From an uncultured Nitrosospira sp. (GTDB taxonomy: Bacteria > Nitrospirota > Nitrospiria > Nitrospirales > Nitrospiraceae), in assembly GCA_900696515.1 (NCBI GenBank), contig CAADGK010000056.1:184383-248382 (forward strand): a DNA stretch of 64,000 nucleotides, given 5' to 3'. The stretch's first letter is position 1; each line of letters starts with the position of its first letter. A model generated the notes under the pieces. It made no database searches, had not been told where the DNA came from, and saw nothing but the letters and a program-made list of their open reading frames with translations. Shown here one piece after another: positions 3,511 through 25,171 of the stretch. Position numbers and translations under genes: made by a program.

Positions 3511-3860
3511 GGGGGCGACCGGTTTCGACGGGGATACTGAGGTCACTGTCGCATGTCGAGCTCTCGGGAACTCGTAAAAGTCCGAGAAAACGCAACTGCC
3601 AATCAAGAACTGGCACTCGCAGCCTAATTTAGGCTGAGACGTCGTTCCATCTGAGGCCCGCGGGGGTGGAACGGCGCGATGCAGCGGGCTGGTCCCAGGC
3701 CGGTGCTCAGCGGCTGAGGACGAGAATTTTCTGGGCTAGCGGCTGTTCTAAGCCTGCCGACGGGCGTGGATGGCTGCGAAACTTAAATTGTCGGCTACAC
3801 ATGTAGACACAGTGCACTGACGATCTTCGGACAGGGGTTCAACTCCCCTCGCCTCCACCA
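3511..3860 (+). ncRNA. ssrA: Transfer-messenger RNA (tmRNA)
   Basis: 5' GGGGGCGACCGGTTTCGACGGGG and 3' GGACAGGGGTTCAACTCCCCTCGCCTCCACCA; tag ORF ...ENATANQELALAA*-TAA at about 3588-3627. Confidence 0.95.
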
Positions 3861-11299: not shown

Positions 11300-11503
11300 A
11301 TGGACTATAAAACCTACCTCTTTACCTACAGCTTTGATGGAGCACAATGGGAATTGCCCATCAAAGCCAAGACGCCCGAAGAGGCACAGGCGCGTCTCAA
11401 CCGTGCCGTCTATGCCGAATACACTGGTGAGTTAATAGCCTCCATTCCCATCTCCTCATCGTGGTTTTCACGGGTTGCCAAGTTTTTCAGATTAGGGCAT
11501 TAA
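11300..11503 (+). CDS. Small hypothetical protein
   Basis: MDYKTYLFTYSFDGAQWELPIKAKTPEEAQARLNRAVYAEYTGELIASIPI...; natural-looking composition; no clear Shine-Dalgarno. Confidence 0.55.
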   Translation: MDYKTYLFTYSFDGAQWELPIKAKTPEEAQARLNRAVYAEYTGELIASIPISSSWFSRVAKFFRLGH

Positions 11504-12322
11504 CCGCACAATCTCTTCCAAGCTCCACACATGAGCTGATACTCCGGCTTGCATGGCTGGCGTAACTCTCAGTGTGGAATGAATCCGCGCAAAGTTGTAA
11601 TACATGAAGTAGAGAGCCAGTGCATGCCGGTGATTCTCAATCTTCTTGCTGTGCGCATTGGTCAGTCTGGTAAACCGTCTCATTCCCATCCGTATTTGTA
11701 GGTTCATCCTTTCTGCGTAGCTGGTTGATACATGGGTTGCGTCAGGGTTGCCTGTAATCTTGTTCTTCTTGGCTCCACAGCATTGAGCAGGGCTATACCG
11801 AGTGGTGACACCTTCCTGAGGCGGGGCCGCGTAGATCTTTTCAAGCATGGCGTAGTCAATCTCTGATCCAAAGGCCTTTTCGACAGCCTGCAAGTAGGCT
11901 CTATGTCCATCGGTTGTAAGTTGAACGCGATTAGCTAACCGTGAAGCCACATCAGAGATGAATTTTTCTGCATACGGGACGCTCCGCTCTCCTACTAGCC
12001 ATGAGATCATCAGCTTGGTATCGGCGCAAATAGCTGTCCAGGTCCACACACTGCCGAATCCAAACTTACCCTTCATTTCATCTGACAGATTCTTATCCTT
12101 CGCAAAACAGAACGACCATATTTCGTCGGCTTGAACGCGGCGGCATGGAAGATTGCGGAGCTTCTCGTCCTGATAGTTGGCGCAGCATGCGCCAAGATCG
12201 GCGAGCAACTTGAGGATGGTAGGCTTTGATACTCCAGTCATGCGGACGGTGCTGTTAATACTTGCTCCTTCGACTAACGCAGATACAACCTGCGTCTTCA
12301 ACTTCAGATTTAGTCGGTTCAT
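11492..12322 (-). mobile_element. IS1-like family transposase (single ORF)
   Basis: MNRLNLKLKTQVVSALVEGASINSTVRMTGVSKPTILKLLADLGACCANYQDEKLRNLPCRRVQADEIWSF...TTDGHRAYL...SYAERMNLQIRMGMRRFTRLTNAHSKK. Terminal inverted repeats not identified. Confidence 0.85.
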
Positions 12323-12351
12323 GTGCCGCCCATTAGTTATCAACAGCTAGC

Positions 12352-12380
12352 TTGACATCAGATAATAACTGACTTATAAT
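12352..12380 (+). promoter_or_regulatory. Perfect sigma70 consensus promoter upstream of fic
   Basis: TTGACA (12352-12357), 17-bp spacer, TATAAT (12375-12380). Confidence 0.8.
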
Positions 12381-12416
12381 CAGATTGCAAGATGTAATCA
12401 TGCGTAGAATACGCAC

Positions 12417-13580
12417 ATGTTATTCACAGCAACACATATGGACGGTGATGAGAGTAGAGTCATACAAGATATTGACTCTATAAGGAAGTCTTTGGGGTAT
12501 GCCTTGGGAGCTTCGCCACAAAAATGGTACGGCTATTTAAGAAGAAGCATGCTCGCAAAGGCTATTAGAGGATCAAACAGCATCGAAGGCTACAACATCA
12601 CGCGAGATGATGCGATGGCAGTTGCAGAAGGTGACGAACCTTTTGATGCTAAGACCCAAGAATGGTTAGCCAATGTTGGCTATCGAAATGCGATGACTTA
12701 TGTTCTTCAGCTAGCAAATGATCCGCATTTCTCATACAGCGATGGGCTAATCCGAAGTCTTCATTACATGATGCTGCAATATGACATGCCAAAGAATCCC
12801 GGTCGTTGGAGGCCGGGCAATATTTTCGTTCGTGATGAGCAGAAAAATGAGACAGTATATGAAGGTCCTGAGTTTGAGAAAGTTCCTAAATTGATGAGCG
12901 AACTGATAGATTCCCTGAATATGTCTACTAGGGAACATCCGATTATAAGAGGAGCCATGGCCCACCTTAACCTGGCTATGATCCATCCATTTTCAGATGG
13001 AAATGGACGAATGGCTAGATGTTTACAGACACTCGTGTTGGCTAGAGATGGGATACTTGCGCCTCAGTTCTGTAGTATTGAGGAGTATTTAGGAAGAAAT
13101 ACACAGCCGTACTATGATGTTCTAGCCACAGTTGGGCAAGGTTCTTGGAACCCACACAATGACTCCCGCCCGTGGATCAGATTTTGCCTTACCGCACATT
13201 TCCGCCAGGCCATGATTTTACGGAGGCGCATTAAAGAAGCGAATCGCGTTGGGGAGCAACTGGACATCGAGATAAAAAAACATGGATTTCCTGACCGAGT
13301 GCTAGCGGTATTGTTTGATGCTGCCTTTGGCTATAGAGTCAGAAACTCTTCCTATCGTATTGCAGCCGAAATATCGGAGAACTTGGCCAGTAGAGATTTC
13401 AAAGAGCTTGTAGAGGTTGGGTTATTGGTCGCATCGGGAGAACGCCGAGGGCGTTTCTATATGGCGTCCAAGGCCCTAGCGATGCTACGAGAGAGGGCGA
13501 AAGAATCCAGGGAAGATGAACATCTTGACCCATTTATGAGTGGGAATATTACTCCTCAGGAAAACCTACCGTTTTCTTGA
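12417..13580 (+). CDS. Fic domain protein (putative AMPylase, class II architecture)
   Basis: HPFSDGNGRMAR matches Fic motif HxFx[D/E]GNGRxxR; N-terminal SNSIEG matches inhibitory [S/T]xxxE[G/N]. Confidence 0.93.
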   Translation: MLFTATHMDGDESRVIQDIDSIRKSLGYALGASPQKWYGYLRRSMLAKAIRGSNSIEGYNITRDDAMAVAEGDEPFDAKTQEWLANVGYRNAMTYVLQLANDPHFSYSDGLIRSLHYMMLQYDMPKNPGRWRPGNIFVRDEQKNETVYEGPEFEKVPKLMSELIDSLNMSTREHPIIRGAMAHLNLAMIHPFSDGNGRMARCLQTLVLARDGILAPQFCSIEEYLGRNTQPYYDVLATVGQGSWNPHNDSRPWIRFCLTAHFRQAMILRRRIKEANRVGEQLDIEIKKHGFPDRVLAVLFDAAFGYRVRNSSYRIAAEISENLASRDFKELVEVGLLVASGERRGRFYMASKALAMLRERAKESREDEHLDPFMSGNITPQENLPFS

Positions 13581-15402: not shown

Positions 15403-16110
15403 CTAGGTCAGGCGGGGCAGTTCAGCCTTGGGAGCTGCTTCCTTCGTTTTTGGTTTATACCCCATTCGGTCCAGTACTTTCATAATCCGCGTCTTCAGCC
15501 GGTCGTCGGCGTCGGCTAACGCGGTGGCCAGTGGTTCTACCGCCGGCTTACCGATCTTCCGCAGAATTTCTGTCGCCGACTGGCGAATTTCATCTTCCTC
15601 CGACACAAGAAAGGGAATGAGGGAGGGGACCGATGGGCCGCCGAGCTTGATGAGTGAATCATAGGCTCGCTGGCGGACATCACCGACCTCATCGCTCAGT
15701 GCTGCCACGAGTGGCTCCACGGCGCGCGGATCTTTCAGCTCTCCCAATACCTCCGCGGCGTATTTCCGGTTCAGCCAGTGCGAATCTTTCAGGTCGAGCA
15801 ACATGGCATCGGCTCGGGCCGTATTGGGGTCTTTCGGGCGAATCCTAAAGCTCTTCGCCACCCGCTTGCCGCCCTCTTCCACGACCCGAATGGTGGCGCC
15901 GTCACCGGCCTTGATTTTTTTGAGGTCCTCCAGCGCTTCTTCCGCCACATCCAGCAGGACCGTCTTACCGTCGTAGGCCAGGAGCTCGACCTCCAGCTGT
16001 CGGCTTTCCGGATTGACCGCGACGACTCGCTCAGTCACTAAGTTAAACCCGTCCTTTTTCTCTCCGCCTTTCGGCGCAATCTGAATCAACTTGGGGGCTT
16101 CATCTGCCAT
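15403..16110 (-). CDS. HEAT-repeat protein with N-terminal non-HEAT beta-rich domain
   Basis: N-terminal NLVTERVVAVNPESRQLEVELLAYDGKTVLLDV; C-terminal HEAT units such as RKYAAEVLGELKDPRAVEPLVAAL. Confidence 0.85.
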   Translation of the reverse strand: MADEAPKLIQIAPKGGEKKDGFNLVTERVVAVNPESRQLEVELLAYDGKTVLLDVAEEALEDLKKIKAGDGATIRVVEEGGKRVAKSFRIRPKDPNTARADAMLLDLKDSHWLNRKYAAEVLGELKDPRAVEPLVAALSDEVGDVRQRAYDSLIKLGGPSVPSLIPFLVSEEDEIRQSATEILRKIGKPAVEPLATALADADDRLKTRIMKVLDRMGYKPKTKEAAPKAELPRLT

Positions 16111-16144
16111 GGGAATGTACCTCTATGGTATGGAGTAAAGATGT

Positions 16145-16909
16145 TTACTGTTCCGGTTTCCAACCAAGGCTGGACAACACCGCCTCGACGGTTTCTTGGA
16201 CCATGGTATTTTCGTCTTCACGCAGTGGGAGTAGTGGCTGAATGGCTTCTGTGGCGCCGAGTCGGGCAAGTGATTCGGCGGCATTGCGCCGGACGAGCCA
16301 ATCTTCATCGCGCAGCGAGTCGATCAAGGGGCCGATGCCCCGGCGATCGCCGATCTTGCCAAGCGCTTCCGCCGCGTGGCGGCGCACCATCCAATTGGAC
16401 CCGAGCAGCCCGTCGATTAGGGCTTCCACTGCCCGCACGTCGCCGACTTTCTTCAGCACGCGGGCTGCATCCTCACGGAGGGTACTGTCCATGAGGGCGT
16501 CGATCAATCCCGGTACCGCCTGGGAATCGCCGATCCGCTCGAGCGCCCAGACTGCCGCCGTCCGCACTGCCCCGTCGCGGTCCTTGATTGCCTTGACCAG
16601 CGGTTCCACCGCGCGCCGGTCCCGTAACTTTCCGAGTGCCGATGCCGCCTGTTCACGGATCGCCCATGAGTCATCCTGAAGCGCCTCGATCATCGGTTCA
16701 ACAACAGACGGGCCCATTCGCACGACCGCGCTGGTCGCGGCTTCCCGAATGACTACGTCCTCATCGGCCATCAACTCGATCAGCCGGGGCAGCGCATCCT
16801 GGCCGGTTTGGCCGAGGCTGGCGATCGCGTGGTCGCGGAGGGCTTCGTTTTCGTCGTAGAGCGCGTGGATCAGTTGTTCAATGCGATCGGACTGAGATTG
16901 CTCAGACAT
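16145..16909 (-). CDS. HEAT-repeat protein
   Basis: Repeated units such as DDSWAIREQAASALGKLRDRRAVEPLVKAIKDRDGAVRTAAVWALERIGD; MSEQSQSDRIEQ start preferred. Confidence 0.88.
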   Translation of the reverse strand: MSEQSQSDRIEQLIHALYDENEALRDHAIASLGQTGQDALPRLIELMADEDVVIREAATSAVVRMGPSVVEPMIEALQDDSWAIREQAASALGKLRDRRAVEPLVKAIKDRDGAVRTAAVWALERIGDSQAVPGLIDALMDSTLREDAARVLKKVGDVRAVEALIDGLLGSNWMVRRHAAEALGKIGDRRGIGPLIDSLRDEDWLVRRNAAESLARLGATEAIQPLLPLREDENTMVQETVEAVLSSLGWKPEQ

Positions 16910-16980
16910 GCCCACCGCCCTCTTCGCGGGTCTGGTTTTCAATGGTTATCATCCGCTCGATGCGATCGGATGCCGGGTGC

Positions 16981-18081
16981 TCAGTCATGCTTGCTGTCCT
17001 CTTCTTGTGTCTGGTTTTCCATGGTCAGGATGGCCTCAAGTTTATCGGCGATCAGGCCGGCATTATAGGCCACCAGGCCATCACGATCCGTCCGGAGTCG
17101 GTCAAAGATGTCTTTGTACGGTGTCAAGACTCCCACGTCCTTGATCTTGGCCAAGGCTTCCATCGCATAGACCCGAAGCGGTCGGATGGGAATGGCATCG
17201 AGATAGAGCTGGGTCGGGCGGGAATCCCCGATCAACCCCAACGCCTTGATCGCCAGCTCCTTCACACCGGTGTCCTTGTCATGTTCGAGCCGTTTCATCA
17301 GTGGGATCACGGCCCGGACATCTCCGATCTTCCCCAGGAGGTCTGCGGCCGCTTCGCGCACGAGCCAGTCCTCATCCTCAAGATATTCGATCAGGATTTC
17401 CACGCTGGGCCGTCCGATTCCCAGGAGATCGATGACGGTCGCCATCCGTGCTTCTTCCCGTTCACTGGCCCCTTCGATGTCGCGCAGCGCATTGAATGTC
17501 GCATCGATACGTTCCCGGATGGCACTCAGTTTCTTTAAGGTGCCCACGGCGATTTCTTGGACTGCCGGTTGTCCCATTGCATCGATGAAGGCGTCAATGG
17601 AGCGAGGATCCAATAGTTGATCGAGCATCAGTGCGGCTGCAATTTGTGCCTCCACATTGGGGTGTTTGAGCAGGTCGCACAGGGGCAGCACGGCAGTCGG
17701 AATAGCACCGACCAGGTGCGTCAAGACTTGTCTTGTGGGGCCCTCCGGTGTGTGCGGTAACAAAGAGACCAGCGCTCGTGCGGTCTCCACATCGAGCACA
17801 CCCGCCATCTGCTCAAGCGCCGCCGCCGCGGCGTTGCGGACGCCGTCCTCATCGCATTCGAGCAGGTCGACCAGGGCGACTCCAGCCTGTGGATCTTTGA
17901 TGCGGGCCAACATCGCCGCCGCTTCCTTCTTCAACTCCGTGGGACCGGTCCGCAAGGCGTCCATAAGCGCCAGGACCGATCGCGGACCACCGGCCACACA
18001 GGCTGCCGTCGCCCGCATGCGGCGCCAGTCTTCTTCATGGATGAGTTCAGAGACCAGTGTCTCGATGGTTTCTTTCGACAT
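16981..18081 (-). CDS. HEAT-repeat protein
   Basis: EDEDWLVREAAADLLGKIGDVRAVIPLMKRLEHDKDTGVKELAIKALGLIGD. Confidence 0.88.
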   Translation of the reverse strand: MSKETIETLVSELIHEEDWRRMRATAACVAGGPRSVLALMDALRTGPTELKKEAAAMLARIKDPQAGVALVDLLECDEDGVRNAAAAALEQMAGVLDVETARALVSLLPHTPEGPTRQVLTHLVGAIPTAVLPLCDLLKHPNVEAQIAAALMLDQLLDPRSIDAFIDAMGQPAVQEIAVGTLKKLSAIRERIDATFNALRDIEGASEREEARMATVIDLLGIGRPSVEILIEYLEDEDWLVREAAADLLGKIGDVRAVIPLMKRLEHDKDTGVKELAIKALGLIGDSRPTQLYLDAIPIRPLRVYAMEALAKIKDVGVLTPYKDIFDRLRTDRDGLVAYNAGLIADKLEAILTMENQTQEEDSKHD

Positions 18082-18086
18082 GGCGT

Positions 18087-19184
18087 TCAGAGGCGGCTAA
18101 CGGAGATCTGACGTGGCCGCCATCCGATGAGCGTCAACGTCTCCCGAACATGGAACCGGATATTCTCATCCGGTGACTCGTTCAACAGCGAAATCAGAGC
18201 CGGAACGACCTTCGATCCGAATTTTGTCAACGCTGCGGCTGCTTCCGCACGCGTATGGGTCGGGCTCAAGGCGGCGACGAGCGAAGGAATCGCCCTGTCG
18301 TCACCGATCAGTCCCAACGCCCGTACGGCCGCCCCTTGCGTGATGAGCTCCTCATTCCACTGATCCCCACAACCGGCCGCCGTTCTCGTCGTTTCCGGAG
18401 GAGCGGCGCCCGTAACAATATCGATCAGAACGGGTACGGCTCTGGGATTGCCGATGCGCCCGAGTGCCTCGACCGCCACAGTCCGTAAACCTGGTTCACG
18501 CATAGCCACGTATAAATGATCCACAGCCTGGGCATCACCGATGTCGCCCAATGCCCGCACGGCGTCTTCGCGAACGGCTGAATCATGGTCGTTGAACAGG
18601 GCCGAGAGCAGCGGCTCGACAGCACGGGGGGAACGTGTCTTCCCCAGCGATTCCACCGCGTGCAGGCGAACCAACCAGTCTTCATGTTCCAAGGCACGCA
18701 CTAAACATGAAATCGCCGCATCACCGATGGCCGCCAGGGCGGTAGCTGCTTCTTCACGAACCGCCTTGACCTTGTCCTGCAGTAGGGGGATCAGGGCGTG
18801 CATGGTCTCTGCGCTCTTCACGCGGCCCAGCGCCCGAGCCGCGTGCATCCGGACGATCCAGTCGGGACTTTTCAGTGCCGATAAGAGCGGAGCGAGTACA
18901 CGCTCATCCGCAATGGTCGCCAGAACGGCCGAAGCTGCTTCTTGAACTGCCAATTCGCCCTCAGTCAGACAGATGCCGAGCGGTTCCACTGCCGGCGCTC
19001 CGATCGCGCGCAGTGCTTCTCCTGCCGCCTCTCGCACGGAACGGTCCTGATCCCGAAGCAGAGCCACGAGAGGACCCACTGCGCGCGGATCGTTGAACTG
19101 GCCAAGCAGACGCGCCGCCTCTTCACGGATCGCCCAATCCTCATCTTTGAGCGCGGCAATCTGTTCTGCCACCTTGTCGGCCAT
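18087..19184 (-). CDS. HEAT-repeat protein
   Basis: MADKVAEQIAALKDEDWAIREEAARLLGQFNDPRAVGPLVALLRDQDRSVREAAGEALRAIG...; contains Cys-bearing insertion RTAAGCGDQWNEE. Confidence 0.88.
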   Translation of the reverse strand: MADKVAEQIAALKDEDWAIREEAARLLGQFNDPRAVGPLVALLRDQDRSVREAAGEALRAIGAPAVEPLGICLTEGELAVQEAASAVLATIADERVLAPLLSALKSPDWIVRMHAARALGRVKSAETMHALIPLLQDKVKAVREEAATALAAIGDAAISCLVRALEHEDWLVRLHAVESLGKTRSPRAVEPLLSALFNDHDSAVREDAVRALGDIGDAQAVDHLYVAMREPGLRTVAVEALGRIGNPRAVPVLIDIVTGAAPPETTRTAAGCGDQWNEELITQGAAVRALGLIGDDRAIPSLVAALSPTHTRAEAAAALTKFGSKVVPALISLLNESPDENIRFHVRETLTLIGWRPRQISVSRL

Positions 19185-19335
19185 ATTGCGTTCTGCCGGG
19201 ATATTGAAACGTCCGCCGGCTTCAGGAGGGTCACGGTTCAGGCTCAGGTTAAGCGAACCAATACTCTCCACTCAGCCTCTTTGGTTTCACTCGCTGCGGC
19301 CTTGCGCGAAGGAGTATGGCGTTCGTCGGATTGAG

Positions 19336-20691
19336 TCAGACGGTGTCGCCGGACGGCCCGAACCGTCCCGTCTGTCCCAGTGGCCGATCGATGCGCATGT
19401 TATCCGCTTGGCTGGAACTGATTTCGACCTCTTCATCAGAAGGGATCCATCCAAGCGTTTCCAAGGTTTCGAGCGCAATTTGCTTAAGAGCATCTTTGGC
19501 CGTCAGGCGAACCGATGCGTAGGACAGCACACGTTCCTTCTCCGCCTCAACTTCCGACGCCTTGGGGTCGTAGAGAAAGGCAATGAGAGGTTCGATTGCC
19601 GCATCACCGATGACGGTCAGGGCTGCTGCGGCCTTTTCGCGCAAGACTCCGTCTTTCAATAACATGATCAAGTCGGGAATCACGCGTGGGTCACGAAACT
19701 GTCCAAGAGCAGTCGCGGCGGCTTCTTTGATGAACGCATCCTCGCTGACGATGCATCCCGGTGTCGGCGAGCCTTCCTGCTTGATCCCTTTGCCCTTCAA
19801 GGCGTCCAGTACGGCCGGGAGCGCACGCGGATCGCCGATCATGCCGAGTGACGCGATGGCATGGCGCTTCACGGCTCCATCTTTCATGGCTTCGATCAGG
19901 GCATCGATCGCGTGAGGGTCGCCGATCATGCCAAGCGCAATCGTGGCATCCTCACGAACGGCTCGATCCGGGTCTTTCAACGCGGCGATGAGGGCCTCGA
20001 CCACCTTGGCATCGCGGACCCACGACCGGCCAATTTGGTAGTCCGTCGTCATTCCCCCCAACGCCCGGGCTGCATGACAGCGAACGACGAAGTCCTTATC
20101 GCTCAGACTCTCGATCAGCGGGTCAACCGAGGGTTGTCCGATGTACACCAGTGCGGTTCCTGCGGTTTCCCTCACGATTTTCGAAGAGTCCCTGAACAGT
20201 TTGATCAAAGCGGGAACAGCCTTGGGGTCTGCGATGCGGCCAAGGGCCTCCGCCACGGCGCTCTTGACGGCCCCGTCCCGGTCCCGGCACGAGGCGATCA
20301 GTGCATCGACCGATTGAGGATCCTTCATTTTGCCGGCGGCCTTGGCGGCGTGTTCTCGGACGCGCCAGCGCTCGTCTTTCAAAGCCGCCACCACACGATC
20401 GATGGCAGGAGATCCTATCCTGGCCATGGCCTCGACCGCCTGGTCTCGAACTTCCATGATCGGGTCATTGAAGAGACCGATCAGGGCTTCCATCGCTTTG
20501 GGGCCGCCGATTTTCGAGACGCCACAACCGGCATAGGCTCGAACAGACCAATAGTCATCGCTGCAGGCGACGAGTAGTGCTTCCAAGGTTGAGGGATCGC
20601 CCAGGTCGGCAAGCGTTTTTGCCGCCTCCTCACGGGTGGCGTCGTCCACGTCCTCAAGCGCATCCAACAAATCGTCGAGTACGTTAGCCAT
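19336..20691 (-). CDS. HEAT-repeat protein
   Basis: MANVLDDLLDALEDVDDATREEAAKTLADLGDPSTLEALLVACSDDYWSVRAYAGCGVSKIGG...; contains insertion QEGSPTPGCIVSED. Confidence 0.88.
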   Translation of the reverse strand: MANVLDDLLDALEDVDDATREEAAKTLADLGDPSTLEALLVACSDDYWSVRAYAGCGVSKIGGPKAMEALIGLFNDPIMEVRDQAVEAMARIGSPAIDRVVAALKDERWRVREHAAKAAGKMKDPQSVDALIASCRDRDGAVKSAVAEALGRIADPKAVPALIKLFRDSSKIVRETAGTALVYIGQPSVDPLIESLSDKDFVVRCHAARALGGMTTDYQIGRSWVRDAKVVEALIAALKDPDRAVREDATIALGMIGDPHAIDALIEAMKDGAVKRHAIASLGMIGDPRALPAVLDALKGKGIKQEGSPTPGCIVSEDAFIKEAAATALGQFRDPRVIPDLIMLLKDGVLREKAAAALTVIGDAAIEPLIAFLYDPKASEVEAEKERVLSYASVRLTAKDALKQIALETLETLGWIPSDEEVEISSSQADNMRIDRPLGQTGRFGPSGDTV

Positions 20692-21151
20692 TGTTTGATT
20701 TCTGGTCGTAATAGGGGTCAGGTTGCCCGCCGTGGGGGTAGGTGCGTTTGCACAGCACGACCAAGGTTTTTGTCCCACGGCCTTGCACACACTGGTCCAA
20801 GGCCGGTGAGTAATCGATGGCGCCGTTCATGCCGACGGTAAAGGAAAAATCGAACGTGAAACTGATGAATTTGTACTTGCCGGGCCGGAGGGACAGGTCT
20901 CGACGCTCGGATGTCTTCGGGGCATCGAGCGACTCCGGATCGGAATTCCATATCGAGGGCGTGACGCCGGGTACCTGCCACCATGACATCGGCACCAACT
21001 TGGTGGCATCGATGGTGATCTGGTGTTCCTGAAGATGTGCTGTCGGCCGGTCTCCGGCAACGCCCCCTTGAACAAATACCATCGTCATTAGGCCGATGAC
21101 GGTGATGCAGAGGTGAAAAAGGCGGTGTTTTGTGACTGGGTGGAAGCTCAT
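20684..21151 (-). CDS. Secreted protein of unknown function (155 aa)
   Basis: Signal-peptide-like N-terminus LFHLCITVIGLMTMVFVQGGVAG; stop overlaps the start region of the downstream HEAT gene. Confidence 0.7.
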   Translation of the reverse strand: MSFHPVTKHRLFHLCITVIGLMTMVFVQGGVAGDRPTAHLQEHQITIDATKLVPMSWWQVPGVTPSIWNSDPESLDAPKTSERRDLSLRPGKYKFISFTFDFSFTVGMNGAIDYSPALDQCVQGRGTKTLVVLCKRTYPHGGQPDPYYDQKSNNG

Positions 21152-21157
21152 AGATGG

Positions 21158-22201
21158 TTAACGTTTCTTGGTAGGGAGCAGAGGCTGGGTGGCTGTCTCG
21201 GGTTGAAAGATCTCCTCGACTACCTTGCTGTCCCATTCGGTGTGGGTCTCGAGCTGGAGCATTCGCATGACGGTCGCCCCGGTATCGATGATGGATACCG
21301 GCTGACGGATGACCTGGCCGCGCGCGATACCTGCTCCGGAAGCGATCCAAGGAACGGCCGGTGTCTCGGCCTGCGTCACTTCCCCGCCGGCGTCATTCCC
21401 CTTTGTACTCAGAGCCGTTACGAGGATGGTCGTGCGGTCCAAGAGATTGTAGTGTTTGAAGAGGTCCAGGACGGACTTCATCGCAGCATCGACCGTCCTG
21501 AGGGCTTGCTGGTATTCCTTCGAATTCCAACCCTGGCTGACACCCGCTCGCCCTGCCTCTGGAAGATGTACCACCAACAAGTGCGGGAGGGCATGGACAG
21601 CGTGGCCGTACCCGTGACCGCTTGCGGCCTTCTGGAAATACTGTTGGATGTAGGCGACGAGCTTCTGAGGGCCGCACTCTGGCCGCAAGGCGCCGCAGAG
21701 TTGATAGTCGGTGTAGGGAGCCGGTTTCGCGAGTTGATAGAGGGATTCGTCCATGAAAAAGACGGCGCTGTCTCGTCCTCCGCCGACATCCAAGTAGTCG
21801 AAGAGGCTCGGGGCGCGTGGATAGCCTCTGCTGAACTCAAACGAATTCCACGTGATCCCATGTTTCTCCACCGGCAGGCCGGTGACGAGGGATGCCATCA
21901 TCGGAAGCCGCAGGGACGGTTGAACGGCGTTGGCCGACCAAGTCACGGATCCTTCCTTGACGAGCTTGTTGAGGACCGGCATGGCACCGCTCTTGAGCGA
22001 GTCCTGGCTAAACCCTTCGAGGACGAACAGGATGACATGCTCTGTTATGGGATTGAGTGGAGCGGCTGCTTTCAAGGGAGGAGTCGCATCAGCGGGAGTA
22101 TACCCTCCGAAGGCAAGACTGCAGGCTAGAAGGCCTCCCAGGATTGTGCGTTTGCGGGACGTACGATGCATCATAACGTGACAATGATCCGTTTGCTTCA
22201 T
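21158..22201 (-). CDS. Alkaline-phosphatase-superfamily-like protein, apparently lacking catalytic residues
   Basis: TEHVILFVLEGFSQDSLKSGAMPVLNKLVKEG...QPSLRLPMMASLVTGLPVEKHGITWN has the AP/phosphodiesterase framework; start codon uncertain. Confidence 0.75.
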   Translation of the reverse strand: MKQTDHCHVMMHRTSRKRTILGGLLACSLAFGGYTPADATPPLKAAAPLNPITEHVILFVLEGFSQDSLKSGAMPVLNKLVKEGSVTWSANAVQPSLRLPMMASLVTGLPVEKHGITWNSFEFSRGYPRAPSLFDYLDVGGGRDSAVFFMDESLYQLAKPAPYTDYQLCGALRPECGPQKLVAYIQQYFQKAASGHGYGHAVHALPHLLVVHLPEAGRAGVSQGWNSKEYQQALRTVDAAMKSVLDLFKHYNLLDRTTILVTALSTKGNDAGGEVTQAETPAVPWIASGAGIARGQVIRQPVSIIDTGATVMRMLQLETHTEWDSKVVEEIFQPETATQPLLPTKKR

Positions 22202-22348: not shown

Positions 22349-23380
22349 ATGTCCGGTCGATTCGAGCCACCGTCGTTGTCCCTCCATATGGCTTTCTGCA
22401 GAGTTTGTCTTCTGATTTTGTGCCTTCTCATCATCGTTGCCGATTTTGCCGTCACACCTCCTGCATGTGCAGAGCCTCGAGTCGTCAATGCCCAAGGCGA
22501 ACATCGCATGGGCGACCGCGATACGCGTGAGGACGCGATCCGTCTTGCGACGGAGGCGGCCAAACGGAACGCGCTTGAACAGGTTGCTACGTATTTGGAG
22601 AGCGTGACGATCGTCGATGGCATGGACGTGACCAAAGACGAAATCCGAACCTATACCGCCGGTCTGGTGCTGGTGCTCAATCAGCAGATCACCACGAGTT
22701 TGGACGGTGATGTGGTGGTCATCAAAGCAGACCTTCTGGCGCAGATGGATACGGAGGAAGTTGCGCGGGCGATCGCGGCGCTCCGCGAAAACGAAGATGC
22801 CCGTGTGCAGCTGGCTGAGCTGAAGCAAGAAAATGAACAGCTGCAAGAAGAGCTCAAGTCGGTGAATCAGGCGCTGGGCGGCGCCGTCACACCGGAGCAA
22901 GTGCAGCAGGCCGCGCTTAAGCGGAAAGAAATTCTGAACCGTGTGCAGTCGAACGCGATGGTCTCGCAGGCTTGGACCAATTGGGTGCTGGTCTCACCGA
23001 TGGGTATCCCCCAAGGTCTCCTAAATAGCGCAAGCGGGCTTTCCCCGGCCAATCCGCACATTGCCATTGCCCAACAGATCATCGCCTATCGGCATCCCCA
23101 TGTGCCACCCTCTCCCCCACGTCCAGGGCTGTTCCCGGGCCGGATGCCGAGCCATGAGCTCGTCCCGCCTCCCGGCGGTTCCGTAGGGTCCCGCCCGTTC
23201 AATGAGACCATTCATCGGACCCCTCGTGGGGTGCCTCCCGCGGATCGTCAATCAATGAGTCAACCGGGCCAATGGGGTAGCGGAGCGAGGCGAGTACCCC
23301 AGAGGCTGCCGGGAGTGCAGCAATCGGATCCGCCTTACCGGGGTGCCCCGTCTTTCGGAGGACCGGGTGGAGGCCGTTGA
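22349..23380 (+). CDS. Secreted FlgT-N/LPP20-like protein with coiled coil and Pro-rich C-terminus
   Basis: AEPRVVNAQGEHRMGDRDTREDAIRLATEAAKRNALEQVATYLESVTIVDGMDVTKDEIRTYTAGLV; coiled coil AELKQENEQLQEELKSVNQ. Confidence 0.65.
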   Translation: MSGRFEPPSLSLHMAFCRVCLLILCLLIIVADFAVTPPACAEPRVVNAQGEHRMGDRDTREDAIRLATEAAKRNALEQVATYLESVTIVDGMDVTKDEIRTYTAGLVLVLNQQITTSLDGDVVVIKADLLAQMDTEEVARAIAALRENEDARVQLAELKQENEQLQEELKSVNQALGGAVTPEQVQQAALKRKEILNRVQSNAMVSQAWTNWVLVSPMGIPQGLLNSASGLSPANPHIAIAQQIIAYRHPHVPPSPPRPGLFPGRMPSHELVPPPGGSVGSRPFNETIHRTPRGVPPADRQSMSQPGQWGSGARRVPQRLPGVQQSDPPYRGAPSFGGPGGGR

Positions 23381-23381
23381 T

Positions 23382-23840
23382 ATGCGATTTCCGAGGAACA
23401 GCGTGAGAGGCCTTGTCGCAGCGGGGAGTTTCTGGCTAGGGTTTGGACTTGTTTTGAATGTGCCGTCAGCCGCGGACAGTGGCTACTCTGCAGAGCAGTA
23501 CTGGATCGGGAGGGGCCAGGGAGATCTCACCAAAGGGAGAGTGATTTGTCAGCGGGTGTCGGAGCTGGCGGCTCGAACCGACCTGGCCAAGCAGATCCGC
23601 GTGTTGGTCAAGGAACATATGATCGACCGGGTCCGTGAACGGTCAGGGCGAGAGACCGAGCAGGATATTGAACTGACTCGCGAGGAAATCGTGCAGGAAT
23701 ATTTACAAGACGTGAAGATCGTCGATCGCCGAATCGATGAAGAGCAGAAAGTTTGCATTGCCACTGTCGTGATGCCGAAACGTCAGATATTGCCGAAGCT
23801 TCCCAATCACGCTCCAAGCCCTTCTGATACCCGTCAGTAA
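23382..23840 (+). CDS. LPP20/FlgT-N-like secreted protein
   Basis: YWIGRGQGDLTKGRVICQRVSELAARTDLAKQIRVLVKEHMIDRVRERSGRETEQDIELTREEIVQEYLQDVKIVDRRIDEEQKVCIATVVMPK; starts 1 nt after the previous stop. Confidence 0.65.
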   Translation: MRFPRNSVRGLVAAGSFWLGFGLVLNVPSAADSGYSAEQYWIGRGQGDLTKGRVICQRVSELAARTDLAKQIRVLVKEHMIDRVRERSGRETEQDIELTREEIVQEYLQDVKIVDRRIDEEQKVCIATVVMPKRQILPKLPNHAPSPSDTRQ

Positions 23841-23902
23841 CGGAACTCGATCCGCACAGATCCGGTTGCAGTCCAGATTCGAGATCGGCTATGTAATCCC
23901 TT

Positions 23903-25171
23903 ATGCCCCTCGAGAATAACTTCCAACACGATGAGCTGTCGCGCAAGAATCCGGGCGAACGTTTGCGTGTCGCCGATCTGACGGACGGTGTTCCTCCAGA
24001 TTCGCCGGAATGGGGCGTGACCATGGCCCGGTATGGGATGAGCCTGTCTCAAGCCGGTGTCACCGGCGTGGTCTTTCTCCATGGTTCGCTCCATGGCACC
24101 GATCTCTTCGGCATGCAGCGATTGGATGACGCGGGTGGCTTGAAACGAGGCTATTCACGCGGTGTGTCGGGAGTCGATGCCTTACTCGCGGCGATGCGTG
24201 AGGAAAGCAACGGTATTCCGCTGCTGGCAGGCGGTCTCAAGCCGCCGCTATCGAGCGATCCCGCCACGAAGCATCTCCTGGATGAACAGATTGGTGACGC
24301 AGGCAACTTCACCGAGGCTTATGTCGAATCGTTTCAAAAGGCCTTGAACCAGAATCTCGCTCGCCCTATCTCCTGCCATAGACTGCTCTGGGCATCCGAA
24401 CACCACCATCTGGGCCGGGCACTTGCCGCCGTTCGGTTGCTTGATGAACTGCATAGGCTTTGCACACGGGAGAATCTGAGCAGAGGCCAACGAGTTCTCG
24501 TCCAGGCGCATGGGCAAGCTGGATTGGTCATGGCCCTTGCCTCAAATATGCTTTGCCCGAGTCCCATCACAGGGCGGCCAAAGTTACTCAACGTCTTGAA
24601 CGGCTATGCTGACCAGACCAACCGGTCTGAACTCGCTGACACCGTGAAACGTATCGAATCGCTGCTCACGGCGGCTACCCTTCTCAATGGTGTCGCGCTC
24701 GACATCGTCACCTTCGGCACGCCGGTTCGTTACGGATGGGATACTTCCGGGATCGGGAAACTTCTGCACGTTGTCAATCATCGGAATTTGCGAACCGATG
24801 GGAAAAGTTGGCTGGCCAAGATGGAACTGCCTCAAATCACCATGGAGATGCCGATCGCCTGGGGGGGAGACTATGTGCAGGAATTGGCCGTAGCGGGCAG
24901 CGATGCCGTCCCTGCGACCGAGGCGGCCAAGGCGGCGAACAAAATGATCTGGGAGCTGGTAGAGCCTTATGATGGATTTGAGCGGTGGCTGGAATGCGCG
25001 AGACGGGCCGTGCGGTTCCCCAGCGAAGGGCGCTGCCTTCTCGTTGATTATCAGGACAGTACCGGCTCAACGAATCCGCGTGACCACTACTTCGGTCACG
25101 CGGTGTATACGCGCCGCCATGCGCTGTTATTCAATCTGATACAGATCGTTCGCACCTTCTACACATCTTAA
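23903..25171 (+). CDS. Alpha/beta-hydrolase (lipase-like) protein with degenerate nucleophile elbow
   Basis: GVVFLHGSLHGTDLFG; VLVQAHGQAGLVMALASNM; VTFGTPVRYGWDTSGIGKLLHVVNHR. Confidence 0.6.
   Translation: MPLENNFQHDELSRKNPGERLRVADLTDGVPPDSPEWGVTMARYGMSLSQAGVTGVVFLHGSLHGTDLFGMQRLDDAGGLKRGYSRGVSGVDALLAAMREESNGIPLLAGGLKPPLSSDPATKHLLDEQIGDAGNFTEAYVESFQKALNQNLARPISCHRLLWASEHHHLGRALAAVRLLDELHRLCTRENLSRGQRVLVQAHGQAGLVMALASNMLCPSPITGRPKLLNVLNGYADQTNRSELADTVKRIESLLTAATLLNGVALDIVTFGTPVRYGWDTSGIGKLLHVVNHRNLRTDGKSWLAKMELPQITMEMPIAWGGDYVQELAVAGSDAVPATEAAKAANKMIWELVEPYDGFERWLECARRAVRFPSEGRCLLVDYQDSTGSTNPRDHYFGHAVYTRRHALLFNLIQIVRTFYTS

Follow-up and report, generated by a model that had tools for sequence, protein, structure and literature searches.

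A substituted phosphodiesterase-fold protein of Nitrospira is encoded together with a small exported partner protein

Analysis of the window (the whole stretch of 64,000 nucleotides) revealed a minus-strand gene encoding a protein with the fold of a nucleotide pyrophosphatase/phosphodiesterase (NPP), designated pAP here. This gene is followed on the same strand by a gene for a small exported protein (sec155) and by genes for HEAT-repeat proteins. The following features are found at the locus.

21158..22174, minus strand: pseudo-NPP (pAP), 338 amino acids from Met10; based on the open reading frame, Pfam PF01663, orthologue N termini and fold
20684..21151, minus strand: sec155, exported protein of 155 amino acids that matches no Pfam family and is predicted to fold as a beta-sandwich; 6 bp separate it from the stop codon of pAP upstream
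19336..20691, minus strand: HEAT-repeat protein without a signal peptide, next gene of the likely operon; it probably starts within the 3' end of sec155
18087-19271, 16981-18081, 16145-16942 and 15403-16110, minus strand: four further tandem HEAT genes, from open reading frames, conserved in order
22349..25171, plus strand: divergent neighbours encoding two exported proteins of 343 and 165 amino acids (the latter LPP20-like) and a protein of 422 amino acids, from open reading frames and Pfam

The pAP frame comprises 347 codons at positions 21161-22201 of the minus strand, with the stop codon at 21158-21160. The first-pass annotation had placed the start at 22201. This start is possible, but the N termini of the orthologues align with the internal Met10, and 22174 is therefore the likelier start. 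A Sec-type signal peptide of the 338-amino-acid form was read from the orthologue N termini. A lipoprotein anchor, considered for the LLAC in the leader, was rejected because the cysteine is not kept in orthologues. A five-helix membrane domain was not found in pAP, where only the signal-peptide-like leader precedes the AP core. pAP is probably an exported, soluble NPP-fold protein of the periplasm.

Among the four further HEAT genes, Pfam revealed the domain in 18087-19271 only, and the other three were judged from sequence. Five tandem HEAT genes thus lie directly downstream of the pair (15403-20790, minus strand). Literature searches for HEAT repeats or phosphodiesterase in Nitrospira gave no relevant result. 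Elsewhere in the window, a transposase-like frame (minus strand) lies beside a Fic-like protein (plus strand) at 11492-13580, both recognized by eye, and a tmRNA gene is located at 3511-3860 (plus strand; tag ANQELALAA).

Comparison of pAP with the Pfam Phosphodiest profile (PF01663) gave 77 bits (cut-off, 23), and the best relatives of solved structure in phmmer were the Xanthomonas NPPs. An AlphaFold2 model of pAP, generated with the orthologue alignment as input, reached a pLDDT of 82.5 and a pTM of 0.88. Foldseek analysis of this model revealed Xanthomonas NPP 7n1s as the top match in the PDB (TM, 0.70; probability, 1.00). In its predicted structure, pAP has the NPP fold. The alkaline-phosphatase (AP) superfamily framework, previously read from motifs at residues 55-69, 95-120 and 257-267, is accordingly confirmed by the profile, the model and the match to 7n1s.

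The catalytic positions were compared between pAP (numbered as the 347-amino-acid form) and NPP (reference residues). Orthologues were analysed in f1, the Nitrospira family of the window genome, and in the sister families f2 and f3; the counts for single positions refer to non-redundant sets. None of the seven positions for the metal ligands and the nucleophile retains its NPP residue in pAP: D54 is replaced by E62, T90 by R98, D210 by G217, H214 by V221, D257 by L264, H258 by S265 and the last metal His by G272.

22016..22018, minus strand: E62, in place of the first metal-ligand Asp (D54); E in 29/29 f1 sequences
21908..21910, minus strand: R98, in place of the nucleophile Thr (T90); R in 29/29 f1 sequences
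21539..21553, minus strand: residues 217-221 (GRAGV), former DxxxGH metal pair D210/H214; from the alignment
21407..21412, minus strand: L264-S265, former Asp-His pair D257/H258; from the alignment
21386..21388, minus strand: residue 272, former last metal His; H in 7/7 f2 sequences, G/-/N/A/V in f1

Position 62 is also Glu in 15 of the 16 f3 sequences (Asp in the remaining one) and Asp in 6/7 f2 sequences. Position 98 is Thr in 14/16 f3 sequences (Pro in two) and in all seven from f2. The remaining metal ligands are gone in all f1 and f3 sequences and kept in all f2 sequences. These results bear out the first-pass annotation as to the change of the metal-binding Asp to Glu, of the nucleophile Thr to Arg and of VTSDHG to VTALST. 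A check of the orthologues, as proposed there, showed the substitutions to be fixed. The DxxxGH pair had been described as missing; both ligands are indeed substituted, but the segment itself is present as EAGRAGVSQG. The same replacements were found again in about 190 related sequences. No alternative set of Asp/His residues was found at the metal sites in the orthologue alignment, where position 221 is V, A, E, L or T, position 272 is free to vary in f1 and position 217 also varies. Judged from these residues, pAP is presumably inactive as a phosphodiesterase.

That pAP is still an enzyme, with catalysis taken over by other residues or metal bound at a newly formed site, appears improbable. 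The AP superfamily tolerates ligand changes, as in YejM, whose divergent site retains Mg and phosphatase activity (PMC7576196), and D135, D138, D144, E152, H200 and H212 of pAP are newly or still invariant. Against this, all canonical ligands are gone, positions 217, 221 and 272 vary, and YejM retains a Thr nucleophile and a metal site, of which the f1 proteins have neither.

The window genome belongs to Nitrospira, and its named neighbours include N. moscoviensis CP011801. The closest pAP orthologues, in Nitrospira MAGs, are about 96% identical. The pAP family is present in 58 of the 59 genomes of the same genus, in 27/28 genomes of f3, in 7/8 of f2 and in 0/4 of a further family, f4. Family names and the assignment of nitrite oxidoreductase (NXR) to families follow an order-level study of Nitrospirales (PMC12342949); f1 probably corresponds to Nitrospiraceae, f3 to UBA8639 (lineage IV), f2 to NS-4 and f4 to UBA2166. 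The same study proposed 140 genes as diagnostic of nitrite oxidation.

In a maximum-likelihood tree, f1 and f3 form a single clade (100/99) whose sister is f2 (100/98), and both are separate from the outgroups (98/93). The stem of f1+f3 is the longest internal branch of the tree (1.0). The outgroup branches are long and their mutual order is unsure; the split between f2 and f1+f3 is independent of that order. The f2 proteins read VDG, PSLTLP, DADTAGH, DHGGH and THG. The ligands are also kept in five outgroup proteins, from Meiothermus, Persicobacter, Asticcacaulis, Phocaeicola and Xanthomonas, with Thr or Ser as the nucleophile; in the Xanthomonas protein, the last His falls beyond the aligned stretch. 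Because f2 and these outgroup proteins are intact, the presumed loss of catalysis is a single event on the stem shared by f1 and f3. Since f3 mostly keeps Thr98 and all f1 proteins have Arg, the metal ligands were lost before the nucleophile, whose loss followed in f1. The three sister families thus preserve an intact, a half-erased and a fully erased state, which makes the sequence of events readable. A second intact paralogue was not found at strong scores in the Nitrospira genomes with pAP or the f2 protein as the query, which revealed weak generic AP relatives only.

The dN/dS ratio of pAP ranged from 0 to 0.23 (20 close pairs), which indicates strong purifying selection. Sequencing error or chance was rejected as the source of the changes by the about 190 sequences that share the replacements, and a pseudogene or sequencing error was rejected by the dN/dS ratio and the fixation across genomes. 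It is extremely improbable that pAP represents a formerly active gene in decay: the loss of all catalytic residues would fit decay, but the dN/dS ratio, the conservation of pAP in 92 of the 99 related genomes, its retention after duplication and its new invariant sites do not. The pseudoenzyme reading of the first-pass annotation is supported by the predicted fold, the fixed substitutions and the dN/dS ratio.

To locate new constraint, sites were scored that have one residue in at least 95% of the 45 non-redundant f1+f3 sequences and in which that residue is absent from all f2 sequences. This analysis revealed 25 sites, 13 of which fall into one segment (max-window permutation P = 0.0002).

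21692..21817, minus strand: residues 129-170 of pAP, FDYxDxxGGxD..FxMDE..YQL..P..Y.D.Q.CG; 13/25 new fixed sites

From the way NPP folds are generally laid out, we place this segment at the side of the cleft that faces the substrate. As the strongest candidate for a new functional surface of pAP, it may form a contact or ligand face. The old catalytic pocket was considered as the functional centre, and this was not supported; conservation of the active-site windows compared to the rest of pAP was 0.72 versus 0.77 in f1 and 0.63 versus 0.73 in f3. The same values weigh against a pocket in which Arg98 and Glu62 would continue to hold a small ligand, whether an oxyanion, a nucleotide or a lipid headgroup, with pAP as a sensor or carrier and sec155 as a secondary partner. 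Such a pocket would agree with the fixation of Arg98 in f1 and of Glu62 in f1 and nearly all of f3, and with the retention of H114, W118, E152 and the fold framework; the Thr at position 98 of most f3 proteins would, however, need a different mode of binding. We regard this reading as unlikely, though not the least likely of the alternatives.

The partner protein sec155 is strongly conserved and has two invariant Cys residues. A Pfam search with sec155 gave no match. Its predicted structure is a beta-sandwich of moderate confidence (pLDDT, 75), for which the best fold match, to CnaB/SpyCatcher, was not significant (E = 0.07; probability, 0.98; TM, 0.50). sec155 adjoins pAP on the same strand in 95/95 testable loci of f1 and f3, the sole exception to adjacency being a contig end at that spot. 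The distance from the pAP stop codon to the aligned sec155 core is 86 to 155 bp across loci. Twelve f1 loci are duplicated (L058-L069), and both genes are present in each, which shows that pAP and sec155 were duplicated together. In f2, sec155 occurs in 6/8 genomes, unlinked to the pAP homologue; it stands alone between genes for an ABC transporter ATPase and a dihydroorotate-dehydrogenase-like protein (L239-L244). Since f2 has both genes unlinked, the pairing formed in the lineage that lost catalysis. Elsewhere in the phylum sec155 is absent, save for weak matches to a repeat protein. Weak tandem matches lie inside large repeat proteins of another family of the class (G205:C2:168856-170161), and these proteins are possibly the wider origin of the sec155 domain.

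The strict pairing with an exported protein of 155 amino acids favours the "binding" role that had been proposed for pAP, and pAP is probably one half, for binding or as a scaffold, of a two-protein module formed with sec155 in the periplasm. According to this model, an active metal-dependent phosphodiesterase-type ancestor, of the type still present in f2, would have lost its metal ligands on the f1+f3 stem, and f1 would then have exchanged the nucleophile Thr for Arg. The protein would have been retained because its surface acquired a binding role. pAP would form the larger half and the beta-sandwich sec155 the other half of a putative physical complex, with segment 129-170 as the contact or ligand face. 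Several points speak against the module: gene adjacency can arise from shared regulation without contact, the sec155 model is of moderate confidence and its best fold match is not significant, the pairing is derived, as sec155 and the enzyme are unlinked in f2, and a purely periplasmic complex leaves the HEAT proteins of the likely operon, which have no signal peptide, unexplained.

The HEAT gene next to sec155 is present at 80 pAP loci, including all primary loci with long flanks, and adjoins the pair in both f1 and f3. The 422-amino-acid protein (23903-25171, plus strand) has no Pfam match and is conserved at f1 and f3 loci, divergent from the pair; by eye, it appears hydrolase-like (VVFLHGSLHG). 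Three f3 genera (g9, g11 and g14; L232-L235) share a conserved arrangement of about 11 kb, in which nxrA-nxrB, nth and pntAB come ahead of the divergent 422-amino-acid gene and the pair is last. NxrB was identified by its match to PDB entry 7b04 (597 bits). The duplicated pairs of f1 lie in islands with genes for DabA/DabB, SbtA or SulP, PII, LarB-like and PAPS-reductase-domain proteins and for an exported protein of 800 amino acids without a Pfam match. L062 has only the LarB-like gene of these markers, and 2 of the 12 duplicated loci are on short contigs. None of the markers was found at any primary pAP locus examined. Several islands share ancestry, so the twelve loci do not represent twelve independent events, and the cargo of SulP may be sulfate rather than bicarbonate. 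As a lead, the genomic surroundings suggest a link with nitrite oxidation or carbon acquisition and not with phosphate metabolism.

It is very unlikely that the pair is a dedicated NXR accessory for assembly or periplasmic tethering. The proximity of nxrAB to pAP in the three f3 genera, with conserved intervening genes, would suit this role, as would the occurrence of the pAP family and sec155 in f1, f2 and f3 and in 0/4 f4 genomes, which fits the families reported to carry NXR (PMC12342949) if the inferred mapping holds. However, nxrB and pAP are on different contigs of the window genome (C93 and C56, respectively) and linkage is absent in most of f1, nth and pntAB lie between, the duplicated pairs are located elsewhere, and f2 appears to have NXR and yet an intact enzyme. 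The pseudoenzyme state as a marker of NXR was likewise rejected as not clean, given that some f2 genomes appear NXR positive with the intact enzyme. A wider reading is doubtful, in which the pair would serve chemolithoautotrophy as a periplasmic module specific to the lineage of nitrite-oxidizing Nitrospirales, the original acting with NXR or the electron-transport apparatus and the duplicates with inorganic-carbon uptake (DabAB, SbtA and SulP islands). If true, such a system would have recruited an AP-superfamily member as a subunit without metal, for which we know of no precedent.

Fully metal-free pseudoenzymes are hardly described in the AP superfamily; none was found by full-text search of a literature collection with few subscription papers. 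pAP and sec155, the latter without a Pfam family, are nearly universal in a major nitrite-oxidizing group. Their constant adjacency, together with an old and never reversed loss of the catalytic residues, suggests that, in Nitrospira, a former enzyme became one of the two proteins of a binding module.

The bacterial NPP of Xanthomonas (PDB 2gsn/7n1s; PF01663) has the fold (TM, 0.70), the order of motif segments and export in common with pAP. pAP differs in its replaced catalytic positions, its shorter core (about 290 residues versus 383), its obligate neighbour sec155 and the new conserved segment 129-170. The closest intact relative is the f2 homologue (L097-L103, probably NS-4), with 37 to 38% identity, which shares the Cys169/Cys176 pair, the GWxS and EWxS motifs and the signal peptide. 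Unlike pAP, it keeps VDG, PSLTLP, DxxxGH, DHGGH and THG, apart from a Glu in the first ligand position of one of the seven proteins, and is unlinked to sec155 and the HEAT genes. The CnaB-type Ig-like domains (FbaB/SpyCatcher), to which the predicted fold of sec155 bears a weak, non-significant likeness, have a conserved Lys-Asp/Asn isopeptide pair; the sec155 alignment has no invariant Lys for such a bond and shows the two invariant Cys residues instead. The nearest concept to pAP is the periplasmic domain of the LPS regulator YejM/PbgA/LapC, in which, as would hold for pAP, an AP-superfamily fold was repurposed for regulation or protein contact. YejM belongs to a different subfamily (16 to 17% identity in the fold match), and its profile (NF038282) gave 20 bits with pAP, below the cut-off of 825. 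YejM is anchored in the membrane by five TM helices, whereas pAP has only its leader, and it still has Thr302 as the nucleophile, binds Mg and acts as a phosphatase despite its divergent site (PMC7576196), whereas pAP has Arg98 and no ligands.
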